From: Pelosinus propionicus DSM 13327
Lineage (GTDB): Bacteria > Bacillota > Negativicutes > DSM-13327
Reading direction: 5' to 3'
Length of the DNA: 64,000 nt
Assembly (NCBI RefSeq): GCF_900114615.1
Contig: NZ_FOTS01000010.1
Span: forward strand, 1-64,000
Notes under the pieces: generated by a model
What the model saw: only the letters and a program-made list of their open reading frames with translations
What the model was told of the DNA's origin: nothing
Database searches by the model: none
Shown: piece after piece, positions 14,789 through 19,602 of the stretch
How the letters are laid out: every line of letters starts with the position of its first letter
How positions within the stretch are numbered: the stretch's first letter is position 1
Made by a program: the position numbers and the translations under genes

Positions 14789-16504
14789 ATGCAATTTATT
14801 GAGAATATGAAAGTCCAATTTAAATTAAAAATACTAGTATTTATCGGTTTTTTATGTATGGCAGTTGTCGGATACACAGGGTATCATTACCTTAGGCAGT
14901 CAGATGCTAACATGAATTTAATGTATAAAGATCGATTGATTCCAGTTAAGCTGGTAAATGAAAGTGCTACGAATGTCAGAGGATCAATCGCAGCAACAAT
15001 AGAACTGATGGTTACAACAGATGAGAAGAAGAATCAAAAGTTAAGAAGTAATATCGATAATCGATCAAACTTAATTAGGAATGCACTTGCCGAAATCGAG
15101 AAAATTCCTACAGATCCACAAGGCAAAGAATTATTAGATAAAGTACAAAGTTCTCTGGAAAAACAAATTTTAGCAAGAGATCGGGTTATTAGGTTAACAC
15201 AAGAAAAGAAAAGCGTTGAGGCTTACGCAGCATATGTTAACGAAGTAGAACCTTTGACAAATGACCTTACAGGCAGTTTACGAAATCTTATGGATTATTA
15301 CACTACAGTATCAGAGCAAATGAATGCTGCTAATCATGAATCGGTTGTAAAAGCAACACAGATTATGATTAGTATCATTTTAATGTCTTCTTTACTATTA
15401 GGGTTATTGGGCTGGTACATTACCAAAGTCATAACAAAACCCTTACATACTATGGTATTGTTTTGCAATGAATTATCTGCGGGGGATTTTAGTGATAAGC
15501 CCCGTGCATTTGTCAGTAAAGATGAATTTGGGCAATTAGCAGATGCTTTGTCCAATACACGTGTCAGCATCCGAACACTGATGCAACATGTCAACGACTC
15601 AGCTGAGCAGGTAGCCGCCTCTTCCGAAGAGCTGACTGCTAGTGCTGATCAATCATCTCAAGCTGCTAACCAAGTTGCCGAAGCCATTACCGATGTAGCC
15701 ACTGGAATGGATGAGCAGTTACATGTAGCCAATGGTACCGCTGAGATTGTCATAAATATGTCAGCCAGTATCCAACAAGTTTCAGCCAATACAAACCAAG
15801 TAGCTGAGCAATCATCTTTAGCAGCTGAAAAGGCTAATGAAGGTAATAAATCTGTTGACAAGGCCGTAAATCAAATGACCTCGATCGAGCAGACGGTCAT
15901 CTCTTCTGCACAAGTAGTTGCCAAATTAGGAGAACGCTCCAAAGAAATTGGACAAATTGTTGATACAATTTCCAGTATTGCAGGACAGACTAATTTACTC
16001 GCTCTAAACGCTGCTATAGAAGCTGCACGTGCAGGAGAACAAGGACGTGGCTTTGCTGTAGTTGCTGAAGAAGTTCGTAAACTTGCGGAACAATCACAAG
16101 ATGCAGCCAAACAAATCGCAGGTTTAATTGGAGAAATACAAGGAGATACCGACAAAGCCGTAAATGCCATGAATGATGGCACCCGAGAAGTAAAAGTGGG
16201 AGCTGAAGTAGTGAACGCTTCAGGAAAAGCCTTTCAGGAAATTGCTGATTTAATTTATAAAGTCTCGAATCAAATAAAAGAAATATCTACTGAGATAGAA
16301 CAAATGGCTGTTGGCAGCCAAAGGATTGTCGAATCTGTAAAACAGATCGACACACTTAGTAAAAAAACATCGAGTGAAGCTCAGACCGTATCGGCTGCGA
16401 CCCAAGAACAATCAGCATCCATGCAGGAAATAGCGTCCTCCAGTCAAGCATTGGCCAATTTAGCAATGAATTTACGGCAAGCTATCAGTAAATTTCACAT
16501 TTAA
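14789..16504 (+). CDS. Methyl-accepting chemotaxis protein (4HB sensor)
   Basis: The transducer is 571 aa. The N-terminus has TM1 (about 13-33, [21 protein letters not shown]) and a periplasmic four-helix-bundle sensor of about 150 residues. TM2 follows (about 188-208, [18 protein letters not shown]), then a HAMP domain ([10 protein letters not shown]...) and the long cytoplasmic coiled coil. The signalling tip contains [29 protein letters not shown] split over residues about 388-416. AAAGGAG precedes the ATG. It is controlled by the c-di-GMP riboswitch upstream, which ties chemoreceptor supply to the motile/sessile switch. The ligand is unknown, and no C-terminal CheR-docking pentapeptide is seen. 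Confidence 0.93.
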
Positions 16505-16680: not shown

Positions 16681-16708
16681 TTGACAGATACAAAAGGAAG
16701 AGTATAAT
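16681..16708 (+). promoter_or_regulatory. Sigma-70 promoter of the T-box transcript
   Basis: TTGACA (16681-16686) and TATAAT (16703-16708) are perfect boxes with a 16-bp spacer. Transcription would begin near 16715 and run into the T-box leader. The stretch 16505-16680 shows nothing else. Confidence 0.85.
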
Positions 16709-16770
16709 GATAGATAATTAACAAAAAGCAATGCAATATCAATTGTATTTAATATTATTGTAAATGTAAT

Positions 16771-17050
16771 GAGGGAGAATGTTGCAATCCTACAATCGTT
16801 TCAGAGAGCTGGTGGTTGGTGTGAACCGGTAACGAAGGGAATGTAAAAATCACTCCTGAACAGCAAAGCTGAAATGTAAAAGTAAGCTGCGCCGGTTTCA
16901 GCTCTTTAAAAGAGTGCAACCGTTATCTTGCTAGGGTTGTTAGACCTGATGAGATGTAGACCAATTGGTCTATGAAAAAGGGTGGTATCGCGAGAAATTT
17001 CTCTTGCCCCTTTGAGTCAATTAAAGACTCGAAGGGCAAGAGTTTTTTTA
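16771..17050 (+). ncRNA. T-box leader, specifier probably ATC (isoleucine)
   Basis: The stem I parts include GAGAGCTGGTGG and GGTGTGAACCGG. A specifier loop (TAAAAATCA) is closed by GGAG/CTCC. The T-box core AAGGGTGGTATCGCG is at about 16978-16992. The terminator stem is CTTGCCC...GGGCAAG (17003-17040), followed by AGTTTTTTT. The codon in register is ATC followed by a purine (Ile). The antiterminator bulge TGGT would pair with a tRNA ending ACCA, fitting Ile (discriminator A) and arguing against AAT/Asn. Uncharged tRNA should allow read-through into the transporter and racemase genes. Confidence 0.9.
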
Positions 17051-17127
17051 TTGTAGACCACTTTTCAATAGCAATATTGCATGATTTAGTTATGATTCCA
17101 ACTATAATGTATTAGGAGGTTTTCTAC

Positions 17128-18096
17128 ATGGTTATGTTTTTAGAAAAGTTAGCTGCGCTGGTTTGCAAGTATATGACGGCCTGGGTGTTAATTGCCTCAG
17201 CTATTGCTTTTGTAAACCCTGCTCCCTTCAAAATTGTCGGTCCATATATTTCCTATCTTCTAGGTGTGATTATGCTGGGAATGGGGCTCACTATGTCCTT
17301 GAAAGATTTTAGATTGGTTCTGACTAGACCAAAAGATGTTTTTTATGGTGTGAGTTTTCGTTATTTGATTATGCCGTTGGCAGGTTTTGGTGTAGCGAAA
17401 TTATTAGGGCTGCCACCAGCTTTAGCTGCAGGAATGGTGTTATTAGGAGCCGCTCCCAGCGGCACAGGTTCAAATGTCATGACTTACATTGCCAAAGGGG
17501 ATACAGCCCTTTCTATCACGGTTTCCAGTGTGAATACGATATTAGCTCCCGTTTTGACACCATATATCTTCCTACTATTGGCTGGTTCAATGATTCCTAT
17601 CGACGTTACCGTACTCCTTGTTGACATCGTCAAGATTGTATTAATCCCTGTGGCTGCAGGTGTTACCCTCCATATGGCAGCTCCTAATCTGGTGGAAAAG
17701 ATTATTAAAATTGTTCCTGCTGTGTCAGTTGTATTCATTATTACCATTTTGTCTTCTGTTGTCGCACTGAATGCTGCAAAAATGGCAACTGTCGCTTTGG
17801 TGCTATGCCTTGCCGTAATACTGCAAAATGTCTTAGGGCTGACCCTTGGTTATTATTCTTCAAAATCAGTTGGTATGTCTTCAAAGAAGTCACGGGCAAT
17901 TACATTTGAAATTGGCATGGAAAATTCAGGTCTCGCTGTCGCCCTTGCCTTGGCTCATCTTGATCCAATGGCGGCTTTGCCCGCTGCAGTTGGTGCTGTT
18001 TGGCAGTATATTAGCGGCAGTATACTAGCTAGTTATTGGTCAAATCGATCTCCAGGGGAAGAAAATACAGATAAAGATATTGTACTGGCAGAATAA
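17128..18096 (+). CDS. BASS family sodium-dependent transporter (PanS-like)
   Basis: The 322-aa protein has about nine to ten membrane segments and bile-acid:sodium-symporter motifs: LLGVIMLGMGLTMSLKDF, LLGAAPSGTGSNVMTYIAKGDTALSI (sodium-site region) and FEIGMENSGLAVALALAHLDP. Bacterial members move ketopantoate, pantothenate or other small organic acids. AGGAGG lies 8 nt before ATG 17128. It is the first gene behind the T-box and 36 nt ahead of the LarA-like gene. Its regulation by an amino-acid-responsive leader suggests a substrate related to amino-acid metabolism, perhaps a branched-chain 2-oxo or 2-hydroxy acid; that is an inference. Confidence 0.9.
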   Translation: MVMFLEKLAALVCKYMTAWVLIASAIAFVNPAPFKIVGPYISYLLGVIMLGMGLTMSLKDFRLVLTRPKDVFYGVSFRYLIMPLAGFGVAKLLGLPPALAAGMVLLGAAPSGTGSNVMTYIAKGDTALSITVSSVNTILAPVLTPYIFLLLAGSMIPIDVTVLLVDIVKIVLIPVAAGVTLHMAAPNLVEKIIKIVPAVSVVFIITILSSVVALNAAKMATVALVLCLAVILQNVLGLTLGYYSSKSVGMSSKKSRAITFEIGMENSGLAVALALAHLDPMAALPAAVGAVWQYISGSILASYWSNRSPGEENTDKDIVLAE

Positions 18097-18132
18097 AAAA
18101 GAGTATACCAGTGAAAAGGAAGGGATATTGCC

Positions 18133-19422
18133 ATGGAAAAGAATATTGCCTTAAAGTATGGTAATGAAGAAATGGTATTAACTATTGCAGAAGAAAATAT
18201 TCTGCAAGTTATCAAAAGTAATCCTATTGTTTTTGATAAATCGGAACTTGAGATTATACAAACAGCCCTGGAAAATCCCATTGGCAGTGAGAGGCTTGCC
18301 AATCTAGTACGAGAAAGAGAACGGGTTTGCGTTATTATCCCCGATATTACCCGCGCCTGGCAGAAAACAGACTTATATCTGCCATTGGTGGTTGAGGAAC
18401 TAAATCGGGGTGGAATAAGAGATGAAGATATTCTTTTTATCTGCGCATTGGGAACTCACCGTCCACAAACAAAAGAAGAGCACCGACTACTGTTAGGGCC
18501 AAAATTGGCCGATCGATTTCAAGTCATTGATCATAACTGCCAGGATCAGGATAATCTGATTGATTGCGGTACCACTTCTTTTGGTACACCTGTGCGGCTC
18601 AATAAAAAGGCAATGGAATGTGATCACCTTATTTTAACTGGCGGTATTGTTTATCATTTCCTTGCCGGGTGGTCCGGTGGTAAGAAATATGTGCTACCTG
18701 GTATTTCCTCCTATGAAACGGTTATGAAAAATCATGCCTTGTCACTTAATCCAATTAGAGGATTAGGACCTCATCCGGACGTCCGTTCCGGCAATGATGA
18801 TACCAATCTGATTCATTTGGATATGTTGGAGGCGGCCAGCCTTGCCAAACCAGCATTTCTTTTCAATGTTGTAACTGCAGAAGGAAGAATCGCAGGCGCT
18901 GTAGCAGGACATTTCAAGGATGCTCATGACAAAGGAAGGGAGCTTGTAGACGCCATTGATGGTGTAACCATACAGGAAAAAGCGGACTTAGTAATTGCTT
19001 CGGCAGGCGGTAGTCCGAAAGACGTAAATCTATATCAATCCATCAAAACACTGATTAATGCACGCGAAGCGACAAAGCCAGGCGGAACGATGATTATTCT
19101 GACTGAAAGCCCCGAAGGACTTGGCGGTAATGCAGACGTACAGAAAATGATTTTAGGTTATGACACCGTTTTGGAGCGGGAAGATGCTTTAAGAGCTGAT
19201 TATAGCATCTCAAAATATGTTGGCTATTATTTCTGCGAGTCGGCAGATAAATTTGATTTGCTATTAGTTTCATCCTTAGACCCTGATCTTTTAAAGAAAG
19301 CAAACATTACGATTGTTAAAACCCTAGATGAAGCACTTGAACTGGTTTATGCAAAGCGTGGACGTAACCTTAAAACTCATATCATGCCCCATGGGGCAAA
19401 CACATTGCCTAGACTTGCATAA
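18133..19422 (+). CDS. LarA-family nickel-dependent 2-hydroxyacid racemase
   Basis: The 429-aa protein is a lactate racemase homologue (DUF2088 plus the C-terminal LarA domain). Residues of the nickel-pincer site are present: THRPQT (His near 108), YHFLAGWSGGKKYVLPG (His near 174, Lys near 184) and KNHALSLN (His near 200). LarA enzymes need the pincer cofactor made by LarB, LarC and LarE, and none of those genes is in the window. LarA homologues act on various 2-hydroxy acids, so lactate is only one option. It shares the T-box transcript with the BASS transporter and ends at a strong terminator. GGAAGG lies 10 nt before the ATG. Confidence 0.88.
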   Translation: MEKNIALKYGNEEMVLTIAEENILQVIKSNPIVFDKSELEIIQTALENPIGSERLANLVRERERVCVIIPDITRAWQKTDLYLPLVVEELNRGGIRDEDILFICALGTHRPQTKEEHRLLLGPKLADRFQVIDHNCQDQDNLIDCGTTSFGTPVRLNKKAMECDHLILTGGIVYHFLAGWSGGKKYVLPGISSYETVMKNHALSLNPIRGLGPHPDVRSGNDDTNLIHLDMLEAASLAKPAFLFNVVTAEGRIAGAVAGHFKDAHDKGRELVDAIDGVTIQEKADLVIASAGGSPKDVNLYQSIKTLINAREATKPGGTMIILTESPEGLGGNADVQKMILGYDTVLEREDALRADYSISKYVGYYFCESADKFDLLLVSSLDPDLLKKANITIVKTLDEALELVYAKRGRNLKTHIMPHGANTLPRLA

Positions 19423-19460
19423 TTTAAAAAAATGATTTCATTGATAAATTTTGCTAATAG

Positions 19461-19499
19461 AAAGAGTCGTCAACCTCATACAGAGGTAGACGACTCTTT
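19461..19499. terminator. Bidirectional terminator
   Basis: AAAGAGTCGTC-AACCTC pairs with GAGGT-A-GACGACTCTTT around ATACA. It separates the LarA-like gene from the converging TonB-receptor gene. Confidence 0.85.
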
Positions 19500-19602
19500 G
19501 TGGATAAGCCTGTTAATAACATGTGAATAGCTGTTGATAACTTTAATTTCATCATTTTTCCAGGCCCAAGGGTTTAAGATGTTAAATTATAGCGTGGGCA
19601 CA

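Follow-up and report, generated by a model that had tools for sequence, protein, structure and literature searches.

An isoleucine T-box operon joining a BASS carrier to a LarA homologue suggests salvage of the isoleucine carbon skeleton in Pelosinus and related bacteria

An operon in Pelosinus propionicus DSM 13327 places a carrier of the BASS family and a homologue of the nickel-pincer enzyme LarA behind a T-box leader with an isoleucine specifier. It lies in a 64,000-nucleotide (nt) stretch of DNA (hereafter ‘the window’) from a 5.4 Mb genome whose closest named relatives are Pelosinus, and runs from a perfect consensus promoter through the T-box and its antiterminator/terminator to the BASS and LarA genes. 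This arrangement suggests an unrecognised route for salvaging the isoleucine carbon skeleton in Pelosinus and related bacteria. In the explanation that we consider probable, the operon would import a hydrophobic 2-hydroxy acid and invert its stereochemistry for isoleucine supply when charged tRNA-Ile is low.

The Rfam scan of the window found a single T-box, which matches covariance model RF00230 on the plus strand at positions 16760–17014 (109.4 bits against a gathering score of 93; E 2.9e-23) and starts 11 nt upstream of the boundary given in the initial annotation. Beyond its score, the leader has an amino-acid codon in its loop and an antiterminator with a UGGN bulge that is exclusive of a terminator. 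The Rfam alignment places the antiterminator at 16977–17013 (fold of −11.1 kcal/mol), with its UGGU bulge at 16983–16986. An intrinsic terminator at 17001–17049, comprised of a hairpin (about 17001–17042; −26.8 kcal/mol) and seven U, was seen by folding and missed by a simple terminator scan. The two structures overlap in bases and are thus mutually exclusive, and the leader as a whole folds 3.6 standard deviations below shuffled sequences. UGGU is the expected partner of a tRNA with discriminator A, a fit that had been claimed from the letters alone and that the alignment supports. Uncharged tRNA-Ile would be predicted to permit read-through into BASS–LarA.

The Rfam alignment alone leaves the register of the specifier ambiguous by one base. 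We calibrated the register on 21 T-boxes of the same genome, in most of which an 8-nt loop precedes the lower stem, with the codon at positions 5–7, one base ahead of the stem. By this rule, tyrS and a DAHP-synthase gene read UAC, valS GUA, leuS and leuA CUC, pheS UUC, glyQ GGC, thrS ACC, serA UCC, cysE UGC, the trp genes UGG and ilvD GUC, whereas ileS, a second ileS, ilvA and ilvB all read AUC (loops and gene identities were read from the sequences by eye; ilvA, ilvB, ilvD and both ileS genes were confirmed with NCBIfam). The loop of the window’s T-box, AAAAAUCA, gives AUC (ATC in DNA) at 16849–16851 of the plus strand; A16852 comes next, and then the stem CTCC (16853–16856), which pairs with GGAG at 16774–16777. 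All 13 orthologous leaders read AUC-A and then CUCCUGAAC; leaders L069 and L072 fall under the Rfam threshold yet carry T-box motifs. An asparagine codon (AAU), obtained by a one-base shift from the Rfam consensus, is ruled out: among the leaders the preceding base may be A or G whereas AUC-A never changes, and the genome’s own T-boxes set the register. The covariance model, from which the initial annotation had expected a fixed specifier, confirmed the T-box and left the codon one base open, and it was the calibration that upheld the isoleucine reading. With these codons, the isoleucine regulon of the genome consists of ileS, ileS2, ilvA, ilvB and BASS–LarA. The second isoleucyl-tRNA synthetase (L014, 1–636 of G000:C105) is nearest to MupB/MupA models and has its own isoleucine T-box. 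Elsewhere, a phenylalanine T-box precedes a sodium:solute symporter-like protein and a leucine T-box precedes a membrane protein (L002 and L003 of G000; L073, 6732–8488); the substrates of these carriers could likewise be inferred.

Upstream of the leader, a sigma-70-type promoter (TTGACA-16-TATAAT, 16681–16708, plus strand) is predicted from its consensus match alone, at 12 of 12 positions. Downstream, on the same strand, lie the 322-residue BASS carrier (17128–18096) and, after a gap of 36 nt, the 429-residue LarA homologue (18133–19422). A hairpin at about 19458–19502 (plus strand; −26.4 kcal/mol, without a long U run) is the likely operon end. The operon holds no dehydrogenase gene. Elsewhere in the genome are genes for LarB, LarC and LarE, which make the nickel-pincer cofactor (NPN), and two GlcD-type dehydrogenase genes, one adjoining an EtfA-like gene; these dehydrogenases could oxidise the 2-hydroxy acid. 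The T-box operon is itself closely preceded by a c-di-GMP-I riboswitch (RF01051; 14544–14631, 72.9 bits) and, behind this riboswitch, the gene for a 571-residue methyl-accepting chemotaxis-like protein (14789–16504).

The carrier matches Pfam SBF (128.5 bits against a cut-off of 24.3; E 3e-37) and has the crossover-site residues T112, N115, E260 and N265 of the BASS family. Its nearest solved relatives are ASBT_NM and ASBT_Yf, and the solved homologues align gap-free at the motifs used. In ASBT_NM, the main-chain nitrogens of T112 and A113 hold the carboxylate of pantoate, N265 and the nitrogen of G267 hold the 2-hydroxyl, and H294 and N295 hold the distal hydroxyl; ketopantoate was not bound (PMC10645422). 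The window’s carrier has Gln at 294 and Tyr at 295 (ASBT_NM numbering). Among the T-box carriers of its clade, T112, N265 and G267 are kept in 31 of 31 and position 294 is Q or E, whereas the remaining carriers, including those linked to ilvD, keep H294, save two with A. Most plainly read, the pocket would suit a 2-hydroxy acid that lacks the distal hydroxyl of pantoate and has a hydrophobic side chain instead. The initial annotation had proposed import of either a 2-hydroxy or a 2-oxo acid; the pocket residues agree with the former (PMC10645422), and the latter is doubtful because ASBT_NM, which shares T112 and N265, bound no ketopantoate. Salvage of pantoate itself for coenzyme A, with LarA converting L-pantoate to D-pantoate, is very unlikely. 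PanS (NF047939) is the carrier’s best NCBIfam match and pantoate is a 2-hydroxy acid bound by ASBT_NM, but the score of 274.6 bits misses the PanS cut-off of 400, Gln-Tyr replaces a His294-Asn295 pair that is changed across the whole clade and kept in the ilvD-linked paralogues, and Ile, Val and Leu specifiers are ill-suited to coenzyme A.

A BASS search of 300 genomes of the class, with reading of the gene surroundings, placed 31 distinct carriers of Negativicutes in one supported clade (100/99), and all 31 stand behind a T-box (22 Ile, 8 Val and 1 Leu). A sample of 398 genomes from across the phylum yielded no further members. Because the clade arose once, the swap at residue 294 counts as a single event and not 31. 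The specifier has switched at least four times on the carrier tree. Genomes G018, G020, G035, G037, G044, G118 and G142 each hold one Ile and one Val copy. The sole Leu (CUC) T-box of the clade (L129, around 4517 of G146:C1) is nested among Ile relatives, its specifier having apparently switched by base change. In one locus, a Val T-box and BASS are followed by an iron-containing alcohol dehydrogenase (GldA/YbdH-like; L124, 4118–6376 of G020:C1), which may do the oxidising step in place of LarA. In four others (L135, L137, L138 and L139), a PhzF-family gene lies downstream of the Val T-box BASS, by Pfam in L135 and by alike start sequences in the other three.

Outside this clade, an ilvD–BASS arrangement occurs in 13 of the loci read, and in five genomes of the genus Pelosinus, including this one, it stands behind a Val T-box; BASS carriers are thus tied to branched-chain synthesis twice over. 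A third BASS gene of the genome (L083, G000:C48) sits within an apparent four-carbon sugar-acid catabolism cluster (aldolase-like and DUF1537-type kinase genes, by eye), likewise pointing to hydroxy acids as possible BASS substrates.

The specifiers of the clade also bear on the main rival explanation, in which the carriers take up branched-chain amino acids and LarA was added later, its role being minor or unrelated. T-boxes often control amino-acid carriers (PMC2494555), and the clade is read by Ile, Val and Leu T-boxes; 18 of the 31 carriers have no adjoining LarA, and the Glu294 of many of them could suit an amino group. The 2-hydroxyl site of ASBT_NM, however, has a main-chain NH donor, which would suit a hydroxyl over an ammonium group, and LarA has been retained beside the carrier in 13 genomes of several families. 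We know of no amino-acid carrier in the BASS family. On balance, we regard uptake of amino acids as doubtful.

The LarA homologue matches Pfam Lar_N (E 2e-75) and LarA_C (E 4e-16) and has R75, H108, H174, K184, H200, Q295 and K298; with larB, larC and larE in the genome, it belongs to the LarA superfamily. These matches, with those of the T-box (RF00230) and the carrier (Pfam SBF), bear out the initial description of a T-box ahead of a BASS carrier and a LarA homologue. Its best NCBIfam match is LarAH10 (NF052525), at 468 bits under a cut-off of 540; the second LarA-like protein of the genome passes this model at 662 bits, so the window’s protein looks like a separate, uncharacterised subgroup.

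At the four selectivity positions the window’s protein has F, L, Y and V. According to published residue rules, hydrophobic 2-hydroxyacid racemases such as LarAH10, LarAH52 and LarAH66 have F/Y at the W358 position, lactate racemases have F, F, W and E/Q, and malate racemases have H/Q and K at 358 and 359 (PMC11770544). With Tyr at the W358 position and hydrophobic selectivity residues, the homologue fits the hydrophobic 2-hydroxyacid racemase type, as the initial annotation had supposed, and not lactate or malate racemase. Lactate and malate are common substrates of LarA enzymes and the closest solved relative of the homologue is the malate racemase Mar2, which would favour import and racemisation of either acid for general carbon, with the Ile T-box incidental. 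That reading is improbable: the selectivity residues, with Y and V at 358 and 359, speak against identity as a lactate or malate racemase, the corresponding models score below LarAH10 (NF033504, 307.7 against a cut-off of 460; NF052593, 388 against 500), and AUC is invariant in the 13 leaders. Dicarboxylates such as 3-methylmalate are unlikely without Lys at 359, and citramalate is excluded by chemistry, as its C2 bears no hydrogen.

The LarA gene travels with the carrier. At an identity threshold of at least 67%, orthologues occur in 12 of 120 related genomes, and in all 13, counting the window’s own, a BASS gene lies immediately upstream and the leader reads AUC, so the conservation of the trio, on which the initial annotation had proposed to check its hypothesis, holds. 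Among the 398 genomes sampled across the phylum, no trio was found outside Negativicutes, and LarA homologues of Clostridium and Tissierellales (51–59%) have no T-box above threshold and no adjoining BASS gene. On one Tissierellales contig, a 51% homologue is preceded by an aminotransferase-like gene, EtfB, EtfA and a GlcD-type dehydrogenase, a neighbourhood of the kind of pathway that our model requires. Within the clade, LarA adjoins 13 of the 22 Ile copies and none of the 9 Val/Leu copies (Fisher p 0.0036), but a strict link to Ile is not upheld after correction for kinship, with only four supported contrasts on the tree, of which one or two are informative.

In the mechanism that we favour, a rise in uncharged tRNA-Ile would lead to its pairing with the stem I AUC and the antiterminator UGGU, and transcription would pass into BASS and LarA. 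The carrier, presumably sodium-coupled by homology, would take in a 2-hydroxy monocarboxylic acid whose side chain is aliphatic, and LarA, with the nickel-pincer cofactor from LarB, LarC and LarE, would interconvert its C2 stereoisomers, making either imported isomer oxidisable by a stereospecific 2-hydroxyacid dehydrogenase of the cell. With 2-hydroxy-3-methylvalerate as substrate, the resulting 2-oxo acid could reach isoleucine by transamination; with 2-hydroxybutyrate, it could do so through acetohydroxyacid synthase. This explanation is supported by the Ile specifier common to the two ileS genes, ilvA and ilvB of the genome, by the trio in 13 genomes and a carrier clade wholly behind Ile/Val/Leu T-boxes, and by the pocket, the LarA residues, LarB/LarC/LarE and the Tissierellales neighbourhood. 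Against it stand the absence of LarA beside 18 of the 31 carriers and of a dehydrogenase in the operon, the linear-chain preference of known racemases, Glu294 and the single origin of the residue swap.

The evidence is split between these two substrates. A branched acid is favoured by the carrier’s relatives behind Val and Leu T-boxes; 2-hydroxybutyrate is favoured by the kinetics of characterised racemases and by the Ile T-box shared with ilvA. As a form of the same explanation, import of 2-hydroxybutyrate, its racemisation and its oxidation to 2-oxobutyrate, bypassing threonine deaminase, is possible, and we hold it tentatively. 2-Oxobutyrate is the isoleucine-specific input of acetohydroxyacid synthase; ilvA, whose product makes it, is under the same Ile T-box, and LarA is found behind Ile T-boxes only (13 of 13). 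Characterised hydrophobic racemases favour linear over branched side chains, and the Sporomusa termitida enzyme LarAH66, a racemase of the same type, is best on 2-hydroxybutyrate and 2-hydroxyvalerate; its KM for 2-hydroxybutyrate is 25 mM, however, its authors doubt that this is the native substrate, and they note that the true substrates of LarAH52 and LarAH66 may have been missed (PMC11770544). The Val/Leu T-box carriers, with the same pocket residues, would moreover need a different substrate, and the LarA–Ile link is lost on kinship correction. The initial interpretation is upheld in part: its branched-chain 2-hydroxy acid fits the Ile/Val/Leu pattern of the clade, but known racemases prefer linear chains, and 2-hydroxybutyrate, which it does not mention, is an equally isoleucine-specific candidate.

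If this is true, the operon would add a salvage route to the branched-chain amino-acid metabolism of anaerobes and provide a physiological function for the hydrophobic racemases. We know of no earlier nickel-pincer enzyme that serves amino-acid supply, and the LarA homologue would be the first as far as we know. The T-box identifies the amino acid whose scarcity would call for the enzyme, narrowing the substrate search to a few compounds, and the residue swap at the pantoate site of the carrier clade supplies a second prediction; together they make the functions of an orphan nickel-enzyme group and a BASS subfamily directly testable. More broadly, chances seem even that Negativicutes have a tRNA-sensed branched-chain salvage system acting on 2-hydroxy acids, with a new subfamily of BASS carriers, standing behind Ile, Val or Leu T-boxes and importing hydrophobic 2-hydroxy acids, whose Ile branch is joined by a nickel-pincer racemase.

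T-boxes, BASS carriers and LarA enzymes are all known individually. In combination they form a T-box regulon whose targets are of a new class, and the carriers make up a new subfamily of BASS. In the open-access literature, with most subscription papers outside its scope, we found no link of a T-box with LarA, BASS or PanS, and a survey of T-box carriers has no match for ‘bile’ or ‘racemase’ (PMC2494555). The leader shares its RNA architecture, AUC specifier, UGGU bulge and attenuation layout with the Ile T-boxes of ileS, the ilv genes and LIVCS or ABC amino-acid carriers, but it stands ahead of BASS and LarA genes instead. The LarA homologue has the catalytic residues, F/Y at the W358 position and hydrophobic pocket residues of LarAH10, LarAH52 and LarAH66 (PMC11770544), and differs in falling under the LarAH10 cut-off and in its association with an Ile T-box and a BASS gene. 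The carrier shares fold family, T112, N265 and G267 with ASBT_NM and PanS (PMC10645422), and departs from them in His294 to Gln, Asn295 to Tyr and predicted regulation by tRNA-Ile. Within the same genome, the operon of a Val T-box, ilvD and a second BASS carrier (L082, 4523–7459 of G000:C33) likewise sets BASS under a branched-chain T-box, but there the partner is dihydroxy-acid dehydratase, the specifier is GUC and the His294-Asn295 pocket is kept.
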